The translations under genes were made by a program, and so were the position numbers. From Lachnospiraceae bacterium (GTDB taxonomy: Bacteria > Bacillota > Clostridia > Lachnospirales > Lachnospiraceae), in the NCBI GenBank assembly GCA_015056885.1, contig SVFL01000004.1, forward strand, positions 35,505 through 99,504: a stretch of DNA of 64,000 bases. Reading direction: 5' to 3'. Of this stretch, positions 1 to 12,704 are shown one piece after another. The notes beneath the pieces are model-generated. The model did not search any database, was not told the DNA's origin, and was given only the letters and a program-made list of their open reading frames with translations. Positions within the stretch are counted from its first letter, which is position 1. Every line of letters begins with the position of its first letter.

Positions 1-2
1 AT

Positions 3-59
3 CAGTCAGACCTTGAGATGTTTGAGGAACTGAAGAATTTGAATCCCAATCAGGGCTAA
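3..59 (+). CDS. C-terminal end of a CDS truncated by the window start (...QSDLEMFEELKNLNPNQG*)
   Basis: Open frame 3 from the window edge to TAA at 57-59; too short to identify. Confidence 0.3.
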   Translation, partial: QSDLEMFEELKNLNPNQG

Positions 60-236
60 GTGGTCTGGAATTTGACGAAACGGGGCAATGAAAAGTAATC
101 GGAGGAAGCAGGGAAGGGACTTCTTTATAGCATTTCAACTAAGATTTTTTAACATAGAACAACTTTATCAAGGTTGATTTGGGCGAAGGTGTTTCCGAAG
201 CTCCTTGCAAGATAACAGAACTTGAATAGGTACGAT

Positions 237-279
237 AAAACCTTTGGATAGCGAATGTGCTATTCGGAGGTTTTTTAAT
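237..279 (+). terminator. Rho-independent terminator-like hairpin with T-tract
   Basis: aaacctttggatagc...gctattcggaggtttttt, imperfect stem followed by T run. Confidence 0.5.
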
Positions 280-513
280 ATTAAGATATTAGTGGAATGA
301 CTTATGATGTGTAAGGCAATATGTTGAGGTGAGAGAGAAAAGTAATTGACAAATAGAATAATAGACGATTGAAAACAGGTGCTAAAAGATATATAATGAT
401 AAAGTAAAATCACAGAATAGAGAAAAGGGAGTGGTTAAGATGCAAGATTAAAGAGTATATTCATGTTTAATTTTTTATTATTTACGTTAATTTAAGCAGA
501 GGAAGGAAGCAAT

Positions 514-3500
514 ATGAAAAAACATGTAAGAAAGATTATAGCGTATTTACTTGCATTGGCAATGTGTGTGGGAGGGCTTGATATGCCGGTATACGCAACC
601 GAAAATACTAATTTGGAAGAGTCAGATGTAGAACTTGAATCAGGAAATTGGGATGGAGTAACGAAAGAGAAGATTTATGAAAATGACGAATATAAAATAA
701 CATTTTCCTTGGCTTCAACATGGGATACAGGTTATAATGCAACTATAAGTATTGAAAATGTTGGTGAAGCAAGTATTCAGAATTGGAGACTGAAATACAA
801 ATTTAATAATGATATTGATGCTATTTGGAATGCAGAGATTTCTTCCTGTTCAGAAGATAAATATGTTGTTAAGAACGTGGGCTGGAATCAGGACATTGCC
901 GTAGATGGAAAAGTGGAGTTTGGGTTTTCGGGTAATCAAGCGTTTAACGGGTTTCCGGAAAGCTTCGAATTGGTTCATAACAGCATGATTGTTCAAGAAA
1001 ATGATTATACTGTTGAGTATATCGTGGATGGAGATTGGGAAAGTGGATTCTATGGTTCTATCCTGATAACGAATCATACAGATTCGGATATTGAAGAATG
1101 GATTCTGGAATTTGATTTTGACAGAGAAATTACCGAGATTTGGAATGGTGTTATAGAATCTCATGAAGGGAATCATTATACTGTCAGAAATGCAGAATAT
1201 AATAGCCTGCTTTCTCCCGGAACATCTGTATCTATCGGCATAAAGGGAAGCGAAGGCACTTTGGATGACGTGCCCTGCAATTATGTGCTTTATGCTTGTA
1301 CAGAGTCTGTAACTGAAGAGGACAACGAAGGAGATATATCGGGTGGCGATGAGCCGGATAGTCCGGTTTCAGATGGAGATATTAGCAATGGCGATATTAG
1401 TGGCGGTGATATTAGTGATGGTGATGTCACAGAAGGCGATGTTACTGGAGGTGATGTCACTCAGGGAGATGTTACAGATGGTGACAGTGCAGAAGATGTA
1501 GAGGAGATACAGGATTATACCAGATATTGGAGTGATATGTTGGATACGGATGGAGATGGTCTTCCGGACGAATATGAAAACGACATTGGAACGGATATTC
1601 ATAATCCTGATACAGATGGTGATAAGTTGTCTGATGGGTATGAAGAATTGTATAGCTCAACAGGTCCTTTAGATCAGTATACACTTGGAAATGGGGTAAT
1701 GGATTCTGAATTAGACCCGGACGAAGATGGATTGACAATTCTGGAAGAATCAATATTAGGAACAGACCCCTTAAATCCGGATTCAGACGAAGATGAATTG
1801 AAGGATGGCGAGGAGACCGGTGTTTATGAGACCAAACCTATGGAATGGGACACAGACGGAGACACTATCAGTGACGGAGATGAGGTGAAAATAGGCTTAA
1901 ATCCTCTAGAGGCGGAGACATATGGATATCCGGATGCAAACTATAAATATGAAACAGGAATTGCAGAAGATTCCATAATTTTCACAAAAATTAACGCAGA
2001 TAATAATGATTATCAAATGAGTTTGGAGATGACTGCACAGGGAAGTGTTGTTTCGGAGCTGATTGTTCGGGAAAGTGCATATTCGGAAATATTGAACTCA
2101 GAAGCGGTAGTAGGTAGTATTCCTGAAATTATTCATAGGGGAACAGGCAAGATTGAATCTGTTACAGTAAAATTCAAAATTGACAATGAAAAGATATATG
2201 ATACATATAGCGCAGAGTCTTTGAAAGGTGCGAAAAGATATAATATTTTTATGTATTGTGAGGATGAAAAATTTCCGGTTCCGTTAAATACTGTTGTGGA
2301 TGAAGAGACAAATACCATAAGTGCTACAGTGGATTGTGTAGGAACGTTTTGTGTGGTAGATATGGAATTGTGGCTACAGAATTTGGGATTTGAGATAAAA
2401 AAGGATGACACTTTGGAAGCGAATAGTATATCAATGGAACAAACAATGATGAGCAGTAGAGCCGCGTATGTTAGACCATCAGAAGCTGAAAATACAGATA
2501 AGGGTTTTGTTTGGGTTCCTAAACAAAAGAAAATGGATATTGTTTTATGCATCAATACGGGAGGGAAAATTGGTAACTGTCAAGATGCGGTTTTTATTCG
2601 CGAAAGTCTTTTGGCCATGGTGGAGTATGTATTTAAAAAGAATGATGTCCGAATTTTTGCACTTGATAGAAATGGAAATTTGATAGATTCAGTAGAATCG
2701 TCGGAAGATTTGGCTCGGGCTGAAGAATTAATAGATGCAGCCGTAGCACAGCAGTCTGACTATCAGTATGCTGATAAGCAGATGAAGACCATATTGAATG
2801 AATTAGGGTTGCGGGAGGATGCTTTCAAATTGACGATTTTTTGGGGAGTAACAAGTGCATATGAAAATTTTGATAAGGAAAGAACAGAGATGATAGAGCG
2901 ACAAATTCATTGCGGTTCTATATGTACAGGTGAGTATCATCCAAGCGATAATTTTGCAGGGTTCACAAAGGCTTCTGGAGGTTTCTATGTTCAATGTACA
3001 TCTGCAAAAACAGCTATTATTGATTACATATGTTTGAAAAATATGAACTATACATACAACATTATTACATCCACAGGGTTGAAAAGCGTTGCATTAGAAA
3101 AGGAATTATCATATAGATACTGGACTGATTCGGATGGTGATGGTTTGTCGGATTTGCAGGAGGTCAGAACAGATAGGATTACTCATAAAAGTGATGGAAC
3201 GGTTGCATTACCTACCTACTATGAGTATATCCAGAAATACAATGCACCGGAAGCATGGTTAGTCGATTGGGCTTACAGATACAATGATGTGGAGGATTTT
3301 AATGGGAGAGGAATTCAGGAATTGTTGGAAGAAACCTATGTACTACCTGTTAAGTCTGACCCTACATTAGTGGACTCGGATGGTGATGGGATTTCGGATT
3401 ATGATGAGTGCGTTTGGGATGGCGTGGATGAGAGGTATCGGGATTTGGGACCGCTACATAAGGATACCATAGAGACACTGTTTCCGGAATTTGCTAAGAC

Positions 3501-4371
3501 TGAACATAATGAACCAAAGAATATTTCCTATATCACTGTAAAGGATAATGATGTTGTTGTGCATACTAAAGTTACTTTTTCTGAGGGAGCAAATGAGAAT
3601 GCACTCAAGTATTTAAAGAAAGACGGTTTGGATTTGCAGTATCAGCAAGCATGTGATGACATTATAGCCAGAGTGGGAGAAGATGTAACATTCAAAGATT
3701 TAATTAAAGATGCACTTTCTTCACGTTGGGAAGGAACCTATGAGGGATCTGCATATGATTTTTATGAAGGATTAAAAGTAAATTTTGCAGTGGTTCTTGA
3801 GGAGTATGATACTACTGACTTGAATAGAGCAGTGAGAATTAATGTAAAATATGGTTCTTGTGGAGTGTCGAATGTTAGTAGTAATGGTTGGTATACCAAT
3901 ATTAAGAGAGTTTTTACGCTATATACGGGATATTGCGATGATGTGACACATAAAGATAAAGCGGGAATAGCGTGTAAAAGATATATGAATTCAAGAAAGA
4001 ATATTGTGAATTATTCTGGAACTTGTGCCCATGAATTTGGACATGTGTGGGGAGTTGCAGACATGTATGATGATGCGAATAACGGATATGAGCCAATTGC
4101 CAATGCAGAAATAATATATGACAAGGGCAAACATAGTATGATGGAAGGATATGGTATAATGTTGTGTAATGGCTCTGCTGTTTCAAATGATATTGAAATG
4201 GTATTATTGGCATTTAGTGAAAATAGGGATCAATTTTTCGTTCCGAATGGTGCAGATAAGGAACTGTCCAAGGCAATCAAACAGGATGTTGAATATAGAT
4301 TGAAGGGCAAGATGCGACAGATATTTATATGGAATGAAAGTAAAAAAAACATGGAATTGAAGCAACCATAA
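514..4371 (+). CDS. Secreted multidomain metalloprotease: signal peptide, two CBM2-like domains, GDIS/GDVT repeat linker, thrombospondin-3/calcium-binding-like DxDGDG repeats, degenerate VWA-like domain, C-terminal HExxHxxGxxD zinc protease motif
   Basis: N-terminal signal sequence MKKHVRKIIAYLLALAMCVGG; two W..GF/GY...I.N....I..W.L...F...I...WN modules; DTDGDGLPDEYE / DSDGDGLSDLQE repeats; CAHEFGHVWGVADMYDD. Confidence 0.8.
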   Translation: MKKHVRKIIAYLLALAMCVGGLDMPVYATENTNLEESDVELESGNWDGVTKEKIYENDEYKITFSLASTWDTGYNATISIENVGEASIQNWRLKYKFNNDIDAIWNAEISSCSEDKYVVKNVGWNQDIAVDGKVEFGFSGNQAFNGFPESFELVHNSMIVQENDYTVEYIVDGDWESGFYGSILITNHTDSDIEEWILEFDFDREITEIWNGVIESHEGNHYTVRNAEYNSLLSPGTSVSIGIKGSEGTLDDVPCNYVLYACTESVTEEDNEGDISGGDEPDSPVSDGDISNGDISGGDISDGDVTEGDVTGGDVTQGDVTDGDSAEDVEEIQDYTRYWSDMLDTDGDGLPDEYENDIGTDIHNPDTDGDKLSDGYEELYSSTGPLDQYTLGNGVMDSELDPDEDGLTILEESILGTDPLNPDSDEDELKDGEETGVYETKPMEWDTDGDTISDGDEVKIGLNPLEAETYGYPDANYKYETGIAEDSIIFTKINADNNDYQMSLEMTAQGSVVSELIVRESAYSEILNSEAVVGSIPEIIHRGTGKIESVTVKFKIDNEKIYDTYSAESLKGAKRYNIFMYCEDEKFPVPLNTVVDEETNTISATVDCVGTFCVVDMELWLQNLGFEIKKDDTLEANSISMEQTMMSSRAAYVRPSEAENTDKGFVWVPKQKKMDIVLCINTGGKIGNCQDAVFIRESLLAMVEYVFKKNDVRIFALDRNGNLIDSVESSEDLARAEELIDAAVAQQSDYQYADKQMKTILNELGLREDAFKLTIFWGVTSAYENFDKERTEMIERQIHCGSICTGEYHPSDNFAGFTKASGGFYVQCTSAKTAIIDYICLKNMNYTYNIITSTGLKSVALEKELSYRYWTDSDGDGLSDLQEVRTDRITHKSDGTVALPTYYEYIQKYNAPEAWLVDWAYRYNDVEDFNGRGIQELLEETYVLPVKSDPTLVDSDGDGISDYDECVWDGVDERYRDLGPLHKDTIETLFPEFAKTEHNEPKNISYITVKDNDVVVHTKVTFSEGANENALKYLKKDGLDLQYQQACDDIIARVGEDVTFKDLIKDALSSRWEGTYEGSAYDFYEGLKVNFAVVLEEYDTTDLNRAVRINVKYGSCGVSNVSSNGWYTNIKRVFTLYTGYCDDVTHKDKAGIACKRYMNSRKNIVNYSGTCAHEFGHVWGVADMYDDANNGYEPIANAEIIYDKGKHSMMEGYGIMLCNGSAVSNDIEMVLLAFSENRDQFFVPNGADKELSKAIKQDVEYRLKGKMRQIFIWNESKKNMELKQP
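1369..1490 (+). repeat. 15-bp periodic coding repeat (GDIS[NGD]/GDVT[EGQD] linker)
   Basis: Five-residue periodicity GDISN GDISG GDISD GDVTE GDVTG GDVTQ GDVTD in the metalloprotease. Confidence 0.8.
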
Positions 4372-4390
4372 GAAAGAGGGAGAATAACAG

Positions 4391-4774
4391 ATGAAGAATA
4401 AGATACCTGTGTTACTGCGAGCATTGACGGGGTTCATTCCGCTATGGCTAAACAATGTAGCCAGTTTGCGTTTTTTTGTGTATTTAGACAGAAACCTAAT
4501 AGATGAATTGGGCCTTAGTGGATATTTAGTGCAAAATGGTGTCAGAGAATATCAATATGGAATTGGCTGGCCTGCACAGATAGGAACCTTTGTAATTATG
4601 TTAGTCACTGTTATCTGGATTTTGATTACTTCCCGCTTCCTCTTTAAGGACAAAAAGCATAAACGTATTTATAAAGTGGTCAGTTTGGGTATAACTTTGA
4701 TTATGTATATTTTCTGGGTGTGGTACTATTTGGATTATTATCCATTATTTAATGACATACGGATTTGGTACTAG
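4391..4774 (+). CDS. Small membrane protein, array paralog 1
   Basis: 127 aa, three hydrophobic segments; nearly identical to 6984-7367. Confidence 0.8.
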   Translation: MKNKIPVLLRALTGFIPLWLNNVASLRFFVYLDRNLIDELGLSGYLVQNGVREYQYGIGWPAQIGTFVIMLVTVIWILITSRFLFKDKKHKRIYKVVSLGITLIMYIFWVWYYLDYYPLFNDIRIWY

Positions 4775-4857
4775 ATGGTTATTAGAAGCAGGTGGCTGCA
4801 AGGATGTATTTTCCTATGCAGCTACTATGCTTTTGGTGCAATAAAGAGGATAAATAG

Positions 4858-5244
4858 ATGAAACAAAAGATAAATGTGTTACTGCGTACATTGATAGGTT
4901 TTATTCCACTATGGCTGAATAATATAGTTAGTTTACGCTATTTTTTGTTTGTGGATAGAGAGCTGATTTTTGAACTGGGGTACGATGGTTATTTGGAACA
5001 AAGCGGTATTAGAGAATATCAATTTGGAATTGGTTGGGCTGCACAGATAGGAACTTTTGCAATTATGGTAGCCACAGTTATTTGGATTTTGATTACTTCT
5101 CGGTTTTTGTTTAAGAATAAAAAACACAAACGCATTTATAAAGCAGTCAGTTTGGTGATTACTTTGATTATGTATATTTTTTGGGTGTGGTACTATCTGG
5201 ATTATTACCCATTGAACCAGAATATTGAAATACACTATATGTAA
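4858..5244 (+). CDS. Small membrane protein, array paralog 2
   Basis: 128 aa, same family (PLWLNNIVSLRYF...AQIGTFAIMVATVIWILITSRFLF...YIFWVWYYLDYYPL). Confidence 0.8.
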   Translation: MKQKINVLLRTLIGFIPLWLNNIVSLRYFLFVDRELIFELGYDGYLEQSGIREYQFGIGWAAQIGTFAIMVATVIWILITSRFLFKNKKHKRIYKAVSLVITLIMYIFWVWYYLDYYPLNQNIEIHYM

Positions 5245-5326
5245 CCATTTTAATATTAAGCATAAAGGTAATTAATATCAAGACTATAAATAATTGTGAA
5301 CGGGAAGGGATTATGGCAGATTTTGT

Positions 5327-5731
5327 GTGAAAGAGAGAGAAGAACAGATGAAGAATAAGATACCTGTGTTACTGTGCGCATTGATAGGTTCTATTCCGTT
5401 ATGGCTGAATAATATAATTAGTTTACGCTACTTTATATATTTAGATACAAGTTTGGTGGACGAACTGGGCTTTGACGGATATTTGGATGATAGTGGTATT
5501 ACGCACTACAAGTTTGGAACAGGTAGTGCGGCACAAATAGGTATTTTCTTAATCATGATTGTTTCTGTTATCTGGATTTTAATTACTTCTCGGTTTCTTT
5601 TTCAAGAAAAAAAGAAGAAGATTATTTACAAGGTAGTCAGTATAGGATTGGTGTTAGCTATGTACATTTTCTGGGTGTGGTACTATCTGGATTACTATCC
5701 GTTGACTGGAAATCTTGAAATTTGGTACTAA
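5327..5731 (+). CDS. Small membrane protein, array paralog 3 (likely start at 5348, MKNKIPVLL)
   Basis: Same family; atgaagaataagatacctgtgttactg start identical to paralogs 1 and 6. Confidence 0.8.
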   Translation: MKEREEQMKNKIPVLLCALIGSIPLWLNNIISLRYFIYLDTSLVDELGFDGYLDDSGITHYKFGTGSAAQIGIFLIMIVSVIWILITSRFLFQEKKKKIIYKVVSIGLVLAMYIFWVWYYLDYYPLTGNLEIWY

Positions 5732-5791
5732 AAAGTTATTAGAAGCAGGTGGCTGCAAGGATATATTTCCTTATGCGGCTATCTGCTATCA

Positions 5792-6193
5792 GTGCATATA
5801 GAGGACATTCTTATGAAAAATTTTATCTGTATTATGCTGGGATGGATACCAATATTGGTAAATATAGTAGTTAGCCGATTGTATGCAGGTTATGCCCAAA
5901 TGTGTCTTTTTGATAAAATGGGAATGGATGCCAGACTGGATGAAAATGGAAATGTCCAATATCATTTTGGTGTAGGGAGCGCATCTTTGGTATTTATGCT
6001 GTTGCTGTTATTGGTTTCAATTATATGGATTATTGTTAATGGAAAAGTTTTTTGTGATAAAAAGAAACAAAAAATATATATTCTGGTGCGTGTTGTGATA
6101 GTGGTGGTTATAGATGTCGCATGGATTTTATATTTTCTTATATCGTATCCGTTGACAGGGCATATGATTTGCATAATGCAACAACCATACTAA
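5792..6193 (+). CDS. Small membrane protein, divergent array paralog 4
   Basis: Same architecture and signature (FGVGSASLVFMLLLLLVSIIWIIVNGKVF...YPLTG). Confidence 0.7.
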   Translation: MHIEDILMKNFICIMLGWIPILVNIVVSRLYAGYAQMCLFDKMGMDARLDENGNVQYHFGVGSASLVFMLLLLLVSIIWIIVNGKVFCDKKKQKIYILVRVVIVVVIDVAWILYFLISYPLTGHMICIMQQPY

Positions 6194-6252
6194 TGAATTG
6201 TCTTTTCGAATTGTAGATGATAGTGGATTCATAGTCTTATGAATACGCCCAA

Positions 6253-6471
6253 AGACTTTAAAACGGTTATTTTGCCGACATATTACGAATATATACAGAA
6301 GTATATTGGCGAAGAGAAATGGTTAAAGAAATTGAAGGCGGACATAATGGACCAGAGAATATCAATTTGAAACCGGTTGGGCTGCGCAGATAGGAACTTT
6401 TGCAATCAGGGTAATTACGGTTATCTGGATTATTATCCGCTGCCCCAGAATATTGAAATACACTATATGTA
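6253..6471 (+). pseudogene. Remnants of a metalloprotease gene copy (LPTYYEYIQKY) fused to an internally deleted membrane-protein paralog
   Basis: 6259-6330 encodes T-V-I-L-P-T-Y-Y-E-Y-I-Q-K-Y as in the metalloprotease (GTVALPTYYEYIQKY); 6356-6471 encodes REYQFETGWAAQIGTFAI...VIWI joined to YYPLPQNIEIHYM*. Confidence 0.7.
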
Positions 6472-6491
6472 AGATTGGTGTATAGAGACAA

Positions 6492-6884
6492 ATGAGGAGA
6501 GTTTTCGGGAAGACGAAAAAAGGTGTATTATTACCGTTACCCATAGTATTTAATATAGTTTGCAGTCTGGTCTGTAAGTGGAATGCAGAAAAATTGTTTT
6601 TTCTGTTAGAAAGAGATGAGCGGTTAATGCGTGATGGAGAACTGTATTATTGCATCGGGACGGGGAGTGTTTTGCTGGTGATTATGCTTGCTCTGTTATT
6701 GGTATCTATTGGCTGGATTTGCATGAATGCAAAGATTGTTTATAATGATAAGGATAGCGCACACAAATATAAGGTATGGAGCATTGGTTTTGTAGTGTTT
6801 ATGGATGTATGTTGGATAATACATTATCTTGATTTGTATTCTCTAATTGGAGTCATTCAGATATTACCTGAACCCCCAATGTGA
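6492..6884 (+). CDS. Small membrane protein, divergent array paralog 5
   Basis: 130 aa; IGTGSVLLVIMLALLLVSIGWICMNAKIVYNDKD...YSLIG. Confidence 0.7.
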   Translation: MRRVFGKTKKGVLLPLPIVFNIVCSLVCKWNAEKLFFLLERDERLMRDGELYYCIGTGSVLLVIMLALLLVSIGWICMNAKIVYNDKDSAHKYKVWSIGFVVFMDVCWIIHYLDLYSLIGVIQILPEPPM

Positions 6885-6899
6885 TGTGGAGCGGAACTC

Positions 6900-6983
6900 T
6901 TGAAAAGTGACTTTATATTTATTGGAATGAATGGATCAAAACCATGGAATTGAAGCAACCATAAGAAAGAGGGAGAATAACAG
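6900..6983 (+). pseudogene. Remnant of the metalloprotease 3' end preceding paralog 6
   Basis: catggaattgaagcaaccataagaaagagggagaataacag is identical to the end of the 514-4371 CDS and its junction with paralog 1. Confidence 0.7.
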
Positions 6984-7367
6984 ATGAAGAATAAGATACC
7001 TGTGTTACTGCGCGCATTGATAGGTTTTATTCCCTTATGGCTGAATAATGTGGCTAATTTGCGGTATTTCTTATACATAAGTAGAAAATTGATTTTTGAA
7101 TTGGGCCTTAGTGGGTATTTAGTGCAAAATGGTGTAAGAGAATATCAATATGGAATTGGCTGGCCTGCACAGATAGGAACCTTAGTAATTATGTTAGTCA
7201 CTGTTATCTGGATTTTGATTACTTCCCGCTTCCTCTTTAAGGACAAAAAGCATAAACGTATTTATAAAGTGGTCAGTTTGGGTATAACTTTGATTATGTA
7301 TATTTTCTGGGTGTGGTACTATTTGGATTATTATCCATTATTTAATGACATACGGATTTGGTACTAG
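6984..7367 (+). CDS. Small membrane protein, array paralog 6
   Basis: 127 aa, nearly identical to paralog 1 (4391-4774). Confidence 0.8.
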   Translation: MKNKIPVLLRALIGFIPLWLNNVANLRYFLYISRKLIFELGLSGYLVQNGVREYQYGIGWPAQIGTLVIMLVTVIWILITSRFLFKDKKHKRIYKVVSLGITLIMYIFWVWYYLDYYPLFNDIRIWY

Positions 7368-7564
7368 ATGGTTATTAGAAGCAGGTGGCTGCAAGGAGAT
7401 ATTTCCCTATGCAGCTACCCGCTATCAGGATCGGAGGCGGTGGAAGTAATTGTTCGAGCTATAGAGGCTGAGGGCACGAATGACATAGAGCAAATCTACA
7501 AGAAGCTGAAAGAGTTGAACGAGGCTTGAAAGGGCTTACAATAAACGATATGTATAATAAAAGC

Positions 7565-7600
7565 GAGGGAGTATCACGCAAGGTGATAACTCCCTCATTT
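7565..7600. terminator. Strong bidirectional terminator hairpin
   Basis: gagggagtatcac gcaa ggtgataactccctc followed by attttac; lies 3' of the 7600-8181 minus gene. Confidence 0.75.
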
Positions 7601-8181
7601 TACATCTTGTCTATGTCAATTTCAAACTCCGGTACGTCTCCGGGCTCGGTCTTCTTAGGCCCCACAGATTCCTTGATTTTCTCCCAGCGTTCTCTGGGGA
7701 ATACATAATTGACTGCCAGTGCAATTGCCACACCGATACCGGTATCAATGATACGGTTGATGGAGTAGGGGACAAAGGTCTCCACCGGGGTGTTGAACAA
7801 AATAATGCACAGGATAACGCCGCCGGGCTGGATGGCACCGGGCCAATGAAGCAACAGGCTCACCTTAATCAATACGATAACGCCCACGAACAAAAATGGA
7901 AGAATTAAGGGGCGCATATCACCATCCGGATAAATCTGTATATAGATTGCAAAAATGGCCATTCCAATCAGACCGCCGAAGAGGGTTCCGAAGAGTCTGT
8001 TGCCTCCGTTTAACTTGGAATTGCCCATGTCATTACCCATGCCGAAGATGGCACCGATACAGGCAAAGGTAGGATTTCTGTCAATCAGCTGATAGAGAAA
8101 GGCACAGATACATGCCGCCAAAGCGGTTTTAATATTGCGCATTCCGATATGAAAGCGAGATTTTTGCTGTGGTGTTTCCAT
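7600..8181 (-). CDS. FUSC/aromatic-acid-exporter-like family membrane protein
   Basis: RNIKTALAACICAFLYQLIDRNPTFACIGAIFGMGNDMGNSKLNGGNRLFGTLFGGLIG resembles the N-terminal membrane domain of the ArAE/FUSC family. Confidence 0.7.
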   Translation of the reverse strand: METPQQKSRFHIGMRNIKTALAACICAFLYQLIDRNPTFACIGAIFGMGNDMGNSKLNGGNRLFGTLFGGLIGMAIFAIYIQIYPDGDMRPLILPFLFVGVIVLIKVSLLLHWPGAIQPGGVILCIILFNTPVETFVPYSINRIIDTGIGVAIALAVNYVFPRERWEKIKESVGPKKTEPGDVPEFEIDIDKM

Positions 8182-8305
8182 GGAAATTTCCTCCGAAAAT
8201 TCAAGTTGCTTACTGGGTTCTCATTTGATATAATATAATGTAAAACTTTGCGCCTGTCAATGACAGGTTTTGCCAAAGTGAAACGATTAAAAATACAGTT
8301 TTTGT

Positions 8306-8350
8306 GTGAATATTCACTAATGAATGTATATTCATGCATGAATATGCAAA
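8306..8350. promoter_or_regulatory. Putative ArgR operator (ARG boxes) upstream of argC
   Basis: tgaatattca and atgaatgtatattcat palindromes followed by atgcatgaatatgcaaa; match to the AT-rich TGAAT..ATTCA ARG-box pattern. Confidence 0.65.
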
Positions 8351-8442
8351 AATATTGTATAAAAATTAAAAAGTAGTGGACATTTATGCAAAAAGTGGTA
8401 TGATTACATAAGATATTGTTTTTGAGAATAGGAGAATTTATT

Positions 8443-9501
8443 ATGATTAAGGTAGGAATTATCGGAGCAACCGGCTATGCCGGAGGAGAGTTGGTAAGAA
8501 TTCTGGCAAACCATAAGGATGCAGAAATTGTGTGGTATGGTTCCAGAAGTTACATAGATAAGAGATATTATGAAGTATATCAGAACATGTTCCAGATTGT
8601 GGAAGATGTGTGTAAGGATGACAATTTGCAGGAGCTTGCTGAGCAGGTGGATGTGATTTTCACTGCAACCCCTCAGGGTTATCTGGCAGGTATTCTCACT
8701 GAGGAGATTTTGCAGAAGGTAAAGATTGTGGATTTGTCTGCAGACTATCGTATTAAGGATGTTGCTACCTATGAGAAGTGGTATGGTATCGAGCACAAGT
8801 CCCCTCAGTTTATCGAGGAGGCGGTGTATGGTCTCTGCGAGATTAACCGTGGCAAGGTGGATGAGAAGACTCGTCTGATTGCGAACCCCGGATGCTACAC
8901 AACCTGTTCCATTCTTACCGCTTATCCTATGGTAAAGGAAGGTATGATTGATGTGGACACCCTGATTGTGGATGCCAAGTCCGGTACCTCCGGTGCGGGC
9001 AGAGGTGCTAAGGTGCCCAATCTGTTCTGTGAAGTAAATGAGAATATGAAAGCTTACGGTGTTGCAAGTCATCGCCACACTCCTGAGATTGAGGAGCAGC
9101 TTGGTTATGCAGGAGACTGTGATGTGACCATCAATTTCACTCCTCATCTGGTGCCTATGAACAGAGGTATTTTGGCGACAGAGTATGCGAAGCTTAAGAG
9201 AAAGCCCGACGGCACACTTCCTACTTATGAGGAAGTAAAGGCTGTTTACGATAAGTATTATGCAAACGAGAAGTTTGTCCGTGTGCTTGATAAGGGCGTA
9301 TGTCCTGAGACCAAGTGGGTTGAGGGCAGTAACTATGTAGATATTAATTTTGTGATTGACGAGCGTACCGAGCGCATTATTATGATGGGTGCCATCGATA
9401 ATCTGGTGAAGGGTGCAGCAGGCCAGGCGGTTCAGAACATGAATCTGCTCTTCGGACTTGATGAGTGGGAAGGTCTTGAACTGGTACCTTGTTTCCCTTA
9501 A
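8443..9501 (+). CDS. argC: N-acetyl-gamma-glutamyl-phosphate reductase
   Basis: MIKVGIIGATGYAGGELVRIL, active-site ANPGCYTT, SGTSGAGR; aggaga RBS; start chosen inside ORF 8416..9501. Confidence 0.95.
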   Translation: MIKVGIIGATGYAGGELVRILANHKDAEIVWYGSRSYIDKRYYEVYQNMFQIVEDVCKDDNLQELAEQVDVIFTATPQGYLAGILTEEILQKVKIVDLSADYRIKDVATYEKWYGIEHKSPQFIEEAVYGLCEINRGKVDEKTRLIANPGCYTTCSILTAYPMVKEGMIDVDTLIVDAKSGTSGAGRGAKVPNLFCEVNENMKAYGVASHRHTPEIEEQLGYAGDCDVTINFTPHLVPMNRGILATEYAKLKRKPDGTLPTYEEVKAVYDKYYANEKFVRVLDKGVCPETKWVEGSNYVDINFVIDERTERIIMMGAIDNLVKGAAGQAVQNMNLLFGLDEWEGLELVPCFP

Positions 9502-9539
9502 AAGTTACATAAGAAAGAGAAGAGGTTAAGAAATAGAAA

Positions 9540-10004
9540 ATGCAGGAAAAAAGTTTTACCATACGAGCAATGACCATAGAAGACTACGAGGGTTTGCGCG
9601 CCCTGTGGATGACCATCAAAGGGTTCGGTATCCGAAGCATTGATGACTCCAGAGAGGGTGTGGAAAAGTTTTTAAAGAGAAATCCCGGTATCAGCGTAGT
9701 TGCAATCGCTGAGGATGGCTCCGTGGTAGGCGGAATTCTCTGTGGCCATGATGGCCGAAGAGGTTGTCTGTACCATGTGTGTGTCCATGCAGATTACCGA
9801 AGAATGGGTATCGGCAAGGCCATGGTAGTGTACTGCATGAATGCTTTGAAGGCAGAGGAGATTAATAAGGTAAGCCTCATTGCATTTACGGTCAATGATG
9901 TGGGTAATGCGTTCTGGAACTGCATTGGCTGGACCAAGAGAGAAGATTTAAACTATTATGATTTCACTTTGAATGAAGCGAATATTACAGCATTTAACCA
10001 ATGA
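9540..10004 (+). CDS. GNAT family N-acetyltransferase
   Basis: HVCVHADYRRMGIGKAMV acetyl-CoA-binding motif. Confidence 0.85.
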   Translation: MQEKSFTIRAMTIEDYEGLRALWMTIKGFGIRSIDDSREGVEKFLKRNPGISVVAIAEDGSVVGGILCGHDGRRGCLYHVCVHADYRRMGIGKAMVVYCMNALKAEEINKVSLIAFTVNDVGNAFWNCIGWTKREDLNYYDFTLNEANITAFNQ

Positions 10005-10084
10005 TTATGTATTGGACAGTGCTTGGTAAAGCAGATTGATGTAATATAAAATCGAGTGTGATAAAGAAAAGGATGGTGTCTGTT

Positions 10085-11317
10085 ATGGCAAATATCAAAC
10101 AAATAGAAGGCGGCGTAACCGCAGCAAAAGGCTTTCAGGCAGCAGGTGTAGAGGCTGCCATCAAATATCAGAACCGCAAGGATATGGCACTGGTTTACAG
10201 TACTGTTCCCTGTAAGGTCGCAGGAACCTTTACCACCAATGTAGTGAAGGCTGCTCCCGTTCTTTGGGACAAAAAAGTAGTAGAGGAGTCAGCATTTGCC
10301 CAGGCAGTTGTGGTAAACTCCGGTGTGGCAAATGCATGTACCGGCAAGCAGGGGTTAGATACCTGTAAGGCAGAGGCAGAGTGCGCAGGTAAGCTTCTTG
10401 GTATTCCTGCAGATTCTGTGTTGGTTGCATCCACTGGTGTCATCGGCATGCAGCTTCCTGAGGACAGAATCTGTGCAGGTATTGAAAAATTAGTTGCAGC
10501 CAAGGCAGATACTTTGGAAGCAGGTCTGGATGCAGCGAAAGCAATTATGACCACTGACACTGTACACAAGCAGATTGCCCTTGAAGTAGAAATCGGTGGC
10601 AAGACCGTGACCATGGGCGGTATGTGTAAGGGTTCCGGCATGATTCATCCCAATATGTGTACTATGCTGGGCTTTGTGACAACAGATGCAAATATTTCCA
10701 AGGAACTTCTGCAGAAGGCAGTCAGTGCGGATGTGGTAGATTCCTTTAACATGATTAGCGTGGATGGCGATACCTCCACAAATGATACCCTGCTGGTAAT
10801 GGCAAATGGTTTGGCAGAGAATGCAGAGATTACCACTGAGGGTGAAGATTACGAGATTTTCTGTGCAGCATTGCATGAAATCACTTCCTATCTTGCCAAG
10901 AAGATGGCCGGTGACGGCGAGGGCGCAACCGCACTTTTTGAGACCAAGGTTGTGGGCGCAGACACCAAGGAGAATGCTCGCGTGCTTGCGAAATCCGTAA
11001 TCTGTTCTTCTTTGACCAAGGCAGCAATCTTCGGACATGACGCTAACTGGGGACGTATCCTCTGCGCACTGGGTTACTCCGGCGTACAGTTTGACCCCGA
11101 GAATGTAGATTTGTACTTCCAGAGCGCATCCGGCAAGATGCAGATTTTCGGTAACGGCGTAGCTTGCGATTACAGCGAGGAGGAGGCCACCAAAATCATC
11201 TCCGACCCCGAAGTTACCGCGCTGGTTGACATGCACATGGGCGATGCCGAGGCAACGGCATGGGGCTGTGATTTGAGCTATGACTATGTGAAGATTAATG
11301 CGGATTATCGGTCATAG
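10085..11317 (+). CDS. argJ: Bifunctional glutamate N-acetyltransferase / amino-acid acetyltransferase
   Basis: MANIKQIEGGVTAAKGFQAAGVEAAIK; KGSGMIHPNMCTMLGFVTTDA autoprocessing site; GHDANWGRI. Confidence 0.95.
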   Translation: MANIKQIEGGVTAAKGFQAAGVEAAIKYQNRKDMALVYSTVPCKVAGTFTTNVVKAAPVLWDKKVVEESAFAQAVVVNSGVANACTGKQGLDTCKAEAECAGKLLGIPADSVLVASTGVIGMQLPEDRICAGIEKLVAAKADTLEAGLDAAKAIMTTDTVHKQIALEVEIGGKTVTMGGMCKGSGMIHPNMCTMLGFVTTDANISKELLQKAVSADVVDSFNMISVDGDTSTNDTLLVMANGLAENAEITTEGEDYEIFCAALHEITSYLAKKMAGDGEGATALFETKVVGADTKENARVLAKSVICSSLTKAAIFGHDANWGRILCALGYSGVQFDPENVDLYFQSASGKMQIFGNGVACDYSEEEATKIISDPEVTALVDMHMGDAEATAWGCDLSYDYVKINADYRS

Positions 11318-11481
11318 TAGCGGTACTGAATTGTCAGGATGCTGTGTATATGGAAGCAATTATGCTGAACAGCAGAAATGTAACTTATGAAGGATAAAGT
11401 GCCACTGATTTTCAAAAAATCAGTGCTCTGTTGACTTGATAAAAATGATTTTGTATATACATAATACAATTTCATGTAGCA

Positions 11482-11651
11482 TTGGGCATATACGAAAAAA
11501 TTTATTCGCAAGACCCATAAAAACGAAAAAACGTACAGGTTTTAGATGATTAACTGTATATTTGGGCATATACATAAAAAATGCCTTTCCAGACCCGTAA
11601 ATCCAAGAAAATTTGGGTCCCACAAGGAAATTTTTCTTCATATGCCCAAGC
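11482..11651. repeat. Intergenic repeat: two direct ~80-bp copies plus one inverted partial copy
   Basis: ttgggcatatac at 11482 and 11562 and agaccc[ag]taa at 11511 and 11591 (both offset 80); inverted tcatatgcccaag at 11639-11651 with ttgggtccc internal. Confidence 0.7.
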
Positions 11652-11807
11652 GCCAACCCAACGGCCTGAACATAGACAAATATTTTTATAGCATAAAGAA
11701 ATAACTTATATTTTACCAAGAAACTAACTATATTGTGGCGGGTTTTGTAAGCCAGCCGGAACTGCGGCGTGACTCGCGAATCCCCCACCCAAGAAAGAGA
11801 GGAACCC

Positions 11808-12704
11808 ATGGAAAAAGATATGCAGCAACTTTTAAAGAAGGCCGAGGTACTTATCGAGGCCCTTCCTTATATTCAGAAATTTAACCGTAAGATCATTGTT
11901 GTAAAATACGGCGGAAGTGCTATGAGCAACGAAGAACTTCAGAAGAATGTAATCAAGGATGTAACCCTTTTGAAACTGGTAGGATTTAAACCCATCATTG
12001 TGCATGGCGGCGGTAAGGCTATCAGCAACTGGGTAGGCAAGGTTGGCAAGGAGGCTCAGTTTGTAAACGGCCTTCGTGTGACCGATGAAGAGACTATGGA
12101 AATTGCTGAGATGGTTCTGGGCAGAGTGAATAAGAGTCTGGTATCTATGGTACAGGAGCTTGGTGTTAAGGCGGTAGGTATCAGTGGTAAGGATGGTGGT
12201 CTTCTTAAGGTTGACAAGAAACTTTCCAATGGACAGGATATCGGTTTTGTGGGCGATGTGAAAAAGGTAGACGCCAAGATTCTGTATGACCTTTTGGAGA
12301 ATGATTTCCTGCCTATTGTTGCTCCTATTGGTATGGATGATAATTTTGATACTTATAATATTAATGCAGATGATGCAGCATGTGCCATTGCTAAGGCAGT
12401 GGGAGCAGACAAGTTGGTATTCCTGACAGATGTAGAGGGCTTGTATCGTGACTTCGAAGATAAGTCTTCCTTCATCTCCAGACTGACTGCTTCTGAGGCA
12501 GATGATTTGATTAACAGCGGTATTATCGGCGGTGGCATGCTTCCTAAGCTGAACAACTGTACTTCCGCTATTAAGAATGGTGTAAGCCGTGTACATATTC
12601 TGGATGGCAGAGTGCCCCACTGCCTGCTTCTGGAAATCTTTACCAAACAGGGTATCGGAACCGCTATCATTGCAGATGACGATGATTTGACCCTTTGTAA
12701 CTGA
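11808..12704 (+). CDS. argB: Acetylglutamate kinase
   Basis: [31 protein letters not shown]; start chosen at ATG 11808 with agagagga RBS. Confidence 0.95.

Follow-up and report, generated by a model that had tools for sequence, protein, structure and literature searches.

Why would a single gene for a secreted metalloprotease be followed by six tandem copies of a gene for a small membrane protein? This arrangement occupies positions 514 to 7,367 of a 64,000-nucleotide (nt) stretch of Lachnospiraceae bacterium DNA (GCA_015056885.1, contig SVFL01000004.1, positions 35,505 to 99,504; hereafter the window). An initial annotation had described a secreted protein of 1285 amino acids (aa) with an HEFGHVWGVAD motif directly upstream of six tandem paralogs of ~130 aa with three transmembrane (TM) segments each, and open reading frame (ORF), domain and family analysis confirmed this layout. 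We propose that the locus is very probably a polymorphic toxin with a homogeneous membrane polyimmunity array, predicted to act through a glycan-binding head, an extracytoplasmic protease and outward-facing membrane immunity.

The effector gene (514–4371; forward strand, as are all features of the locus given here) encodes a 1285-aa protein of modular architecture, as established by ORF and Pfam/NCBIfam analysis. It begins with a Sec signal peptide (MKKHVRKIIAYLLALAMCVGGLDMPVYA, 514–600), recognized by its hydrophobic segment, and two CBM2 carbohydrate-binding-type domains (650–1263; Pfam PF00553, 140 bits in two stretches, the second at aa 166–250 and the first with approximate boundaries). 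A GD-rich linker, a first block of DxDGDG calcium-binding-type TSP3 repeats (1528–1923; Pfam PF18884, TSP3_bac), a beta-sandwich, a degenerate vWA-like region, a second TSP3-like block just upstream of the toxin domain (3118–3400; repeat family D6 in the sequence) and a C-terminal zincin follow in this order. The beta-sandwich and vWA-like labels were assigned from position and alignment, neither having a Pfam match in the window protein. Pfam gave no match to an LXG/WXG N-terminus in the effector, which has the Sec signal peptide and CBM2 domains there instead.

The C-terminal putative toxin domain (3463–4371) can be classed as zincin/metzincin-type (M6/M7-like) by its conserved HExxHxxGxx(H/D) motif, the zinc-binding and catalytic HEFGHVWGVAD at 4030–4062. 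The His, Glu, His, Gly and Asp of this motif are invariant in all six aligned homologs, at identities down to 24%. The only NCBIfam match of the effector, M6dom_TIGR03296, falls at the active site and is weak (E = 1 × 10⁻⁴); at 22 bits against a curated cut-off of 110.8, it does not place the window protein among the M6 peptidases. Independently, four relatives also matched M6 weakly, again at the active site. With M6/M7-type metzincins such as snapalysin and immune inhibitor A, the window zincin shares HExxHxxGxxD and weak profile matches at the active site, but all of these lie far below curated cut-offs, and the domain appears to be a zincin branch of its own that is joined to a toxin body. 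It falls in no curated toxin family.

Paralog 1 (4391–4774, 127 aa), the putative cognate immunity gene, begins after a gap of 19 nt. In the same orientation follow paralogs 2 (4858–5244, 128 aa) and 3 (5348–5731, 127 aa) and the divergent paralogs 4 (5813–6193, 126 aa) and 5 (6492–6884, 130 aa), which were assigned as putative immunity genes by ORF and family comparison, and the mosaic paralog 6 (6984–7367, 127 aa); the starts of paralogs 3 and 4 were placed at internal ATGs. All-against-all E-values below 1 × 10⁻⁶ unite the six in one family that ranges, as first described, from near-identical (1 and 6) to divergent (4 and 5) members: identity to paralog 1 is 76% for paralog 2, 68% for paralog 3, 32% for paralog 4 and 31% for paralog 5 (about 31–33% in all), and 93% for paralog 6. 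Hydropathy and an AlphaFold2 model of moderate quality (pLDDT 71) predict three long helices. The paralogs fall in no Pfam, NCBIfam or PADLOC family, in line with the earlier remark that they belong to no named family, and a Foldseek search of the 3-TM model against the PDB returned no match (best E = 0.94). ATP_synt_H, DUF267 and other weak Pfam matches of the small proteins were below cut-offs and were not used. As PADLOC likewise gave no match for the effector, the locus is not among the catalogued anti-phage systems. Paralogs 1, 2, 3 and 6 differ from one another most densely in loop 1 and the C-terminal tail. These two segments comprise 43 residues, of which 21 are changed between paralogs 1 and 3, compared with 19 of 84 elsewhere. 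By the positive-inside rule, both segments would face outward. Six tandem genes of one family constitute the arrangement of a homogeneous polyimmunity locus, in which the proteins would serve as immunity factors.

The array also contains pieces of the effector gene. Between paralogs 4 and 5 lies a remnant of a divergent second effector gene (about 6245–6325), whose 27 codons show 67% identity to effector aa 890–916 and score 37.0 bits against a best of 23.1 among 1000 shuffles. It is accompanied by a remnant of a seventh paralog (6354–6472), which matches aa 53–86 and 113–128 of paralog 2 and has an internal deletion. Immediately upstream of paralog 6, a copy of the effector 3′ end (WNEWIKTMELKQP-stop) plus spacer (6915–6983, with the alignment continuing to 6990) is 92% identical over 77 nt to positions 4321–4397. 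Paralogs 1 and 6 are themselves mosaic, with nearly identical 5′ and 3′ stretches on either side of a divergent patch of ~90 nt, which codes for TM1 and the beginning of loop 1. The copied effector end and spacer, together with the fusion of an effector remnant to a paralog remnant, indicate that the effector end and the small gene were duplicated as a unit.

Two further loci in the same genome encode proteins of 1249 and 1255 aa with the CBM2–TSP3 body at about 30–35% identity. Their C-termini differ from that of the window effector, and so do their membrane arrays, which consist of ~190-aa 1-TM proteins at one locus and ~150-aa 3–4-TM proteins at the other; no similarity was detectable among the array proteins of the three loci. 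One of the sister loci, L016, additionally carries a classic orphan toxin-end/immunity module (7263–8419), in which a fragment 92–98% identical to the effector body (aa 552–677) leads into an alternative C-terminus (36% identity) and is followed by two further immunity-like paralogs. Such predicted orphan cassettes downstream of the main gene are a feature of polymorphic toxin loci. The L016 module is also a possible donor for toxin switching.

Beyond this genome, a profile search located the body in 25 of 146 relatives, several of them with multiple loci, and the C-terminal halves could be read in 27 long effectors. By Pfam, these C-termini include Ntox44, CDI_toxin_EC869_like, PT-TG pre-toxin, thermolysin (M4), subtilase (S8), class 3 lipase and DUF4474, along with vWA domains, while further C-termini common to a few body homologs match no Pfam domain. 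Ntox44, CDI_toxin_EC869_like and PT-TG scored above Pfam cut-offs and are known polymorphic-toxin domains. A conserved body with exchangeable, putatively toxic C-terminal domains, some of them assigned by their sequence to recognized toxin families, is what defines a polymorphic toxin. Binary_toxB matches in two homologs did not reach threshold and concern a calcium-binding domain; we did not take them as kinship with binary toxins.

The downstream arrays vary with the type of C-terminus. With ORFs called mechanically and TM segments called by hydropathy only, so that signal peptides count too, the next same-strand gene was small and encoded at least one hydrophobic segment (membrane protein or lipoprotein) for 19 of 24 body homologs and for 13 of 47 control genes from the same loci (p = 5 × 10⁻⁵). 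Tandem paralogs followed 9 of the 24 body homologs and none of the 47 controls (p = 2 × 10⁻⁵). Linkage of a putative immunity gene directly downstream, and its variation with the C-terminus, are thus likewise those expected of polymorphic toxins.

Several body homologs are of interest in their own right. Candidate new toxin types end in a class 3 lipase (L085, 8208–12980), a subtilase (L060, 515–3940; L081, 564–4073) or a thermolysin (L066, 354–3578), and those of L085, L060 and L066 are followed by one or more membrane proteins or lipoproteins. C-type lectin domains, found by Pfam within the effector body of L075 (1592–4006) and L082 (4125–6797), with a similar-looking stretch in L071 (1608–3293), add a further type of binding module to this architecture. 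Genome G128, from another family of the order, has at least four body homologs (L076–L079); in three of them, the C-termini are related and the multi-TM genes downstream match. In L061, the C-terminal half of the effector (about 2349–4200) is masked as N and its toxin end is unreadable.

The zincin end itself is rare: at a loose cut-off, it occurs in 8 of 392 genomes of the order. Among GTDB genomes, a scan picked out full-length relatives with 44–46% identity in four Lachnospiraceae metagenome-assembled genomes (MAGs; L092–L095). Over its last ~970 residues, the window effector is 41–43% identical to L093–L095, and 38–51% identical to L092 over two blocks. The N-terminus of all four differs from the CBM2 head: L094, for example, aligns with effector aa 310–1283 at 43% and leaves the head out. 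Conversely, the window CBM2 head matches L063, L067 and others whose C-terminal ends are unrelated. Both head and toxin end are thus exchanged. Distant zincin matches (L096–L100) were set aside as family evidence.

In each of L092–L095 and in L113, the gene after the zincin effector encodes a membrane-anchored 1-TM protein. The 1-TM paralogs of the four MAGs are 179–192 aa long and number three in L092 and three in L093; they are also in tandem in L095. An orphan zincin fragment sits between two of the 1-TM genes of L095, and an effector-body fragment follows the three of L093. L113 combines CBM2 and zincin with a single 172-aa 1-TM gene, and G115 has two truncated zincin modules, each followed by a 1-TM gene for 164–167 aa. 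Co-occurrence holds one level above the 3-TM family: each close relative of the protease C-terminus has a membrane-anchored protein encoded after it, though of another family. The same toxin end thus pairs with membrane partners of different families, a 3-TM array in the window and 1-TM genes elsewhere.

Exchangeable C-termini on a shared body, curated toxin domains, arrays that differ according to the C-terminus and pieces of effector genes within arrays support the effector/immunity reading, with an orphan immunity array, that had first been offered for this locus. The alternative offered beside it, of membrane inhibitors or anchors, survives in part: an immunity protein here would be an outward-facing membrane inhibitor, so that the inhibitor version overlaps with immunity, while a plain anchor is disfavored.

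Several observations weigh against this assignment. The 3-TM family is almost confined to this genome, a genome-wide scan having found no relative, so that co-occurrence with proteases is seen only above the level of the family. One distant 3-TM relative (L021/L112, ~25% identity) lies at a contig edge, with no protease neighbor on its 8.4-kb contig, and the zincin partners in other genomes form a separate 1-TM family. AlphaFold2 modeled the zincin domain poorly (pLDDT 47), which leaves the motif and the weak profile matches as the basis of the fold assignment. Finally, 5 of the 24 body homologs have no membrane gene next to them, and two of these, L070 (PT-TG) and L074, have small soluble neighbors. 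In these two cases, the soluble neighbors would fit immunity sited where a cytoplasm-acting toxin works.

Could the effector instead be a nutritional or matrix-degrading protease, with the small membrane proteins as its export helpers, anchors or regulators? CBM2 domains are typical of plant-fiber enzymes, and their presence suggests a fiber-associated enzyme; small membrane proteins placed directly downstream in the same orientation would also suit such a role. However, the same body carries a nuclease-type toxin, a lipase, a subtilase and other ends, many with their own unrelated membrane family, whereas a helper of the shared body should be conserved with the body. Nor would a helper be expected to come in six diverging copies, with pieces of the effector inside the array and with orphan C-terminal modules, and we regard this explanation as unlikely. 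A second alternative is that the effector is directed at eukaryotic or host material. The array would then shield the producer from its own broadly destructive surface protease and would not be a means of kin competition, in agreement with the idea of a secreted protease with membrane inhibitors. Fragilysin, a host-directed metzincin, is among the weak profile matches of the zincin, but that match is at chance level (E = 0.5); competition between bacteria is what array expansion, C-terminal exchange and the matches to curated interbacterial toxin domains (Ntox44, CDI EC869-like) indicate, which leaves the host-directed explanation distinctly improbable. That the six paralogs are an unrelated tandem family adjoining the protease gene by chance might be argued from the distant relative that has no protease neighbor and from the 3-TM family not being found beside other copies of the window protease, but the protease 3′ end and spacer copied before paralog 6, the protease remnants fused to a paralog remnant and the equivalent arrays downstream of homologous effectors make it exceedingly unlikely.

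If the locus is a polymorphic toxin with its immunity array, a mechanism can be sketched from the domain order. The effector would be exported via its Sec signal peptide, with the two CBM2 domains as a glycan-binding head, the TSP3 stalk and beta-sandwich, including its degenerate vWA-like part, as the body, and the zinc protease as the exchangeable toxin end. The head may bind glycans on neighboring cells or on a shared fiber, which would allow the protease to cut an envelope protein of the target cell in its extracytoplasmic part. In producer cells and their kin, the outward-facing loop 1 and C-terminal tail of the immunity protein would block the protease. Paralog 1 is the most likely cognate, and paralogs 2–6 would be orphan copies derived from the duplicated unit of effector 3′ end plus immunity gene.

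Among known systems, the layout is closest to TspA/TsaI and TelC/TipC. TspA of Staphylococcus aureus is a type VII secreted, membrane-depolarizing toxin encoded with tandem tsaI genes, and TsaI is a 5-TM DUF443 protein (PMC9484751). As in the window, a series of polytopic membrane immunity paralogs (putative here), no two of them identical, comes directly after one polymorphic toxin gene, with a toxin-gene fragment inside the cluster (PMC9484751). Unlike TspA/TsaI, the window effector has a Sec signal peptide, a CBM2–TSP3 body and a zincin end, and its paralogs have three TM segments and no Pfam match. TelC of Streptococcus intermedius, a lipid II phosphatase exported by type VII secretion, is countered by multiple TipC paralogs (PMC6193138); there, as we infer for the window, a toxin acting outside the Gram-positive membrane is met by membrane-anchored immunity proteins with multiple paralogs (PMC6193138). 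The 1-TM zincin partners of L092–L095 resemble TipC in layout, with an N-terminal TM segment and an exported domain. The family search turned up no sequence relation to TelC/TipC, although no comparison was aimed at it. The locus belongs to neither system, as it differs from both in N-terminus, export route, toxin end and immunity family, and the Sec signal peptide and CBM–TSP3 body set it apart.

Zhang et al. (2012) described polymorphic toxins with C-terminal exchange, orphan cassettes, homogeneous polyimmunity arrays and HExxH peptidase toxins (PMC3482391), all of which have counterparts in the window and its relatives. In their survey, nearly all immunity proteins were cytoplasmic, and secreted or TM ones were tied to a surface-acting toxin (PMC3482391), whereas most arrays here encode membrane proteins or lipoproteins. 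The main text of that survey makes no mention of TSP3, vWA, CBM or thrombospondin (PMC3482391), and we found no description of a CBM2–TSP3 polymorphic toxin in the open-license PMC literature.

Other features of the locus include a hairpin element after paralog 1 (4772–4850), with related copies after paralog 3 (5729–5805) and paralog 6 (7365–7441). It comprises about 20 base pairs, with a minimum free energy of −29 to −32 kcal/mol and z-scores of −3.3 to −5.0; it has no T run and no further copy in the genome, and Rfam returned no family in window positions 1–8500, the hairpin included. The repeated hairpin may be part of the duplicated unit, a transcript stabilizer or a recombination block. 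A candidate sigma-70-like promoter (TTGAAA-17-TATAAT, 369–397) lies upstream of the effector gene, the regional count of such matches being not above that of shuffles. Downstream of the locus (8416–12704) are argC-, argJ- and argB-like arginine biosynthesis genes, which we take to be an ordinary chromosomal setting.

To our knowledge, contact-dependent or short-range antagonism by gut Lachnospiraceae is poorly known compared with the type VI systems of Bacteroidales and the type VII systems of Firmicutes. We tentatively put forward, as a plausible rather than a probable generalization, that Clostridia, and above all Lachnospiraceae, have a distinct class of Sec-secreted polymorphic toxins that act at the outer face of the Gram-positive membrane and need no type VII system. 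In this class, glycan-binding heads (CBM2 and others), themselves exchangeable, would sit on a TSP3 stalk and be combined with exchangeable proteases, lipases and other ends and with outward-facing membrane or lipoprotein immunity arrays, and recombination would swap both the head, which sets targeting, and the toxin end. Such loci raise the points that extracytoplasmic proteases and lipases may serve as interbacterial toxins in Gram-positive bacteria and that carbohydrate-binding heads may set toxin targets. With toxin ends that can be read and membrane arrays linked to it, the CBM2–TSP3 body would serve as a handle in the search for many new toxins and immunity proteins of common gut commensals, and its recurrence with other toxin ends and other arrays, in the same and in related genomes, points to a little-studied class of bacterial weapons.

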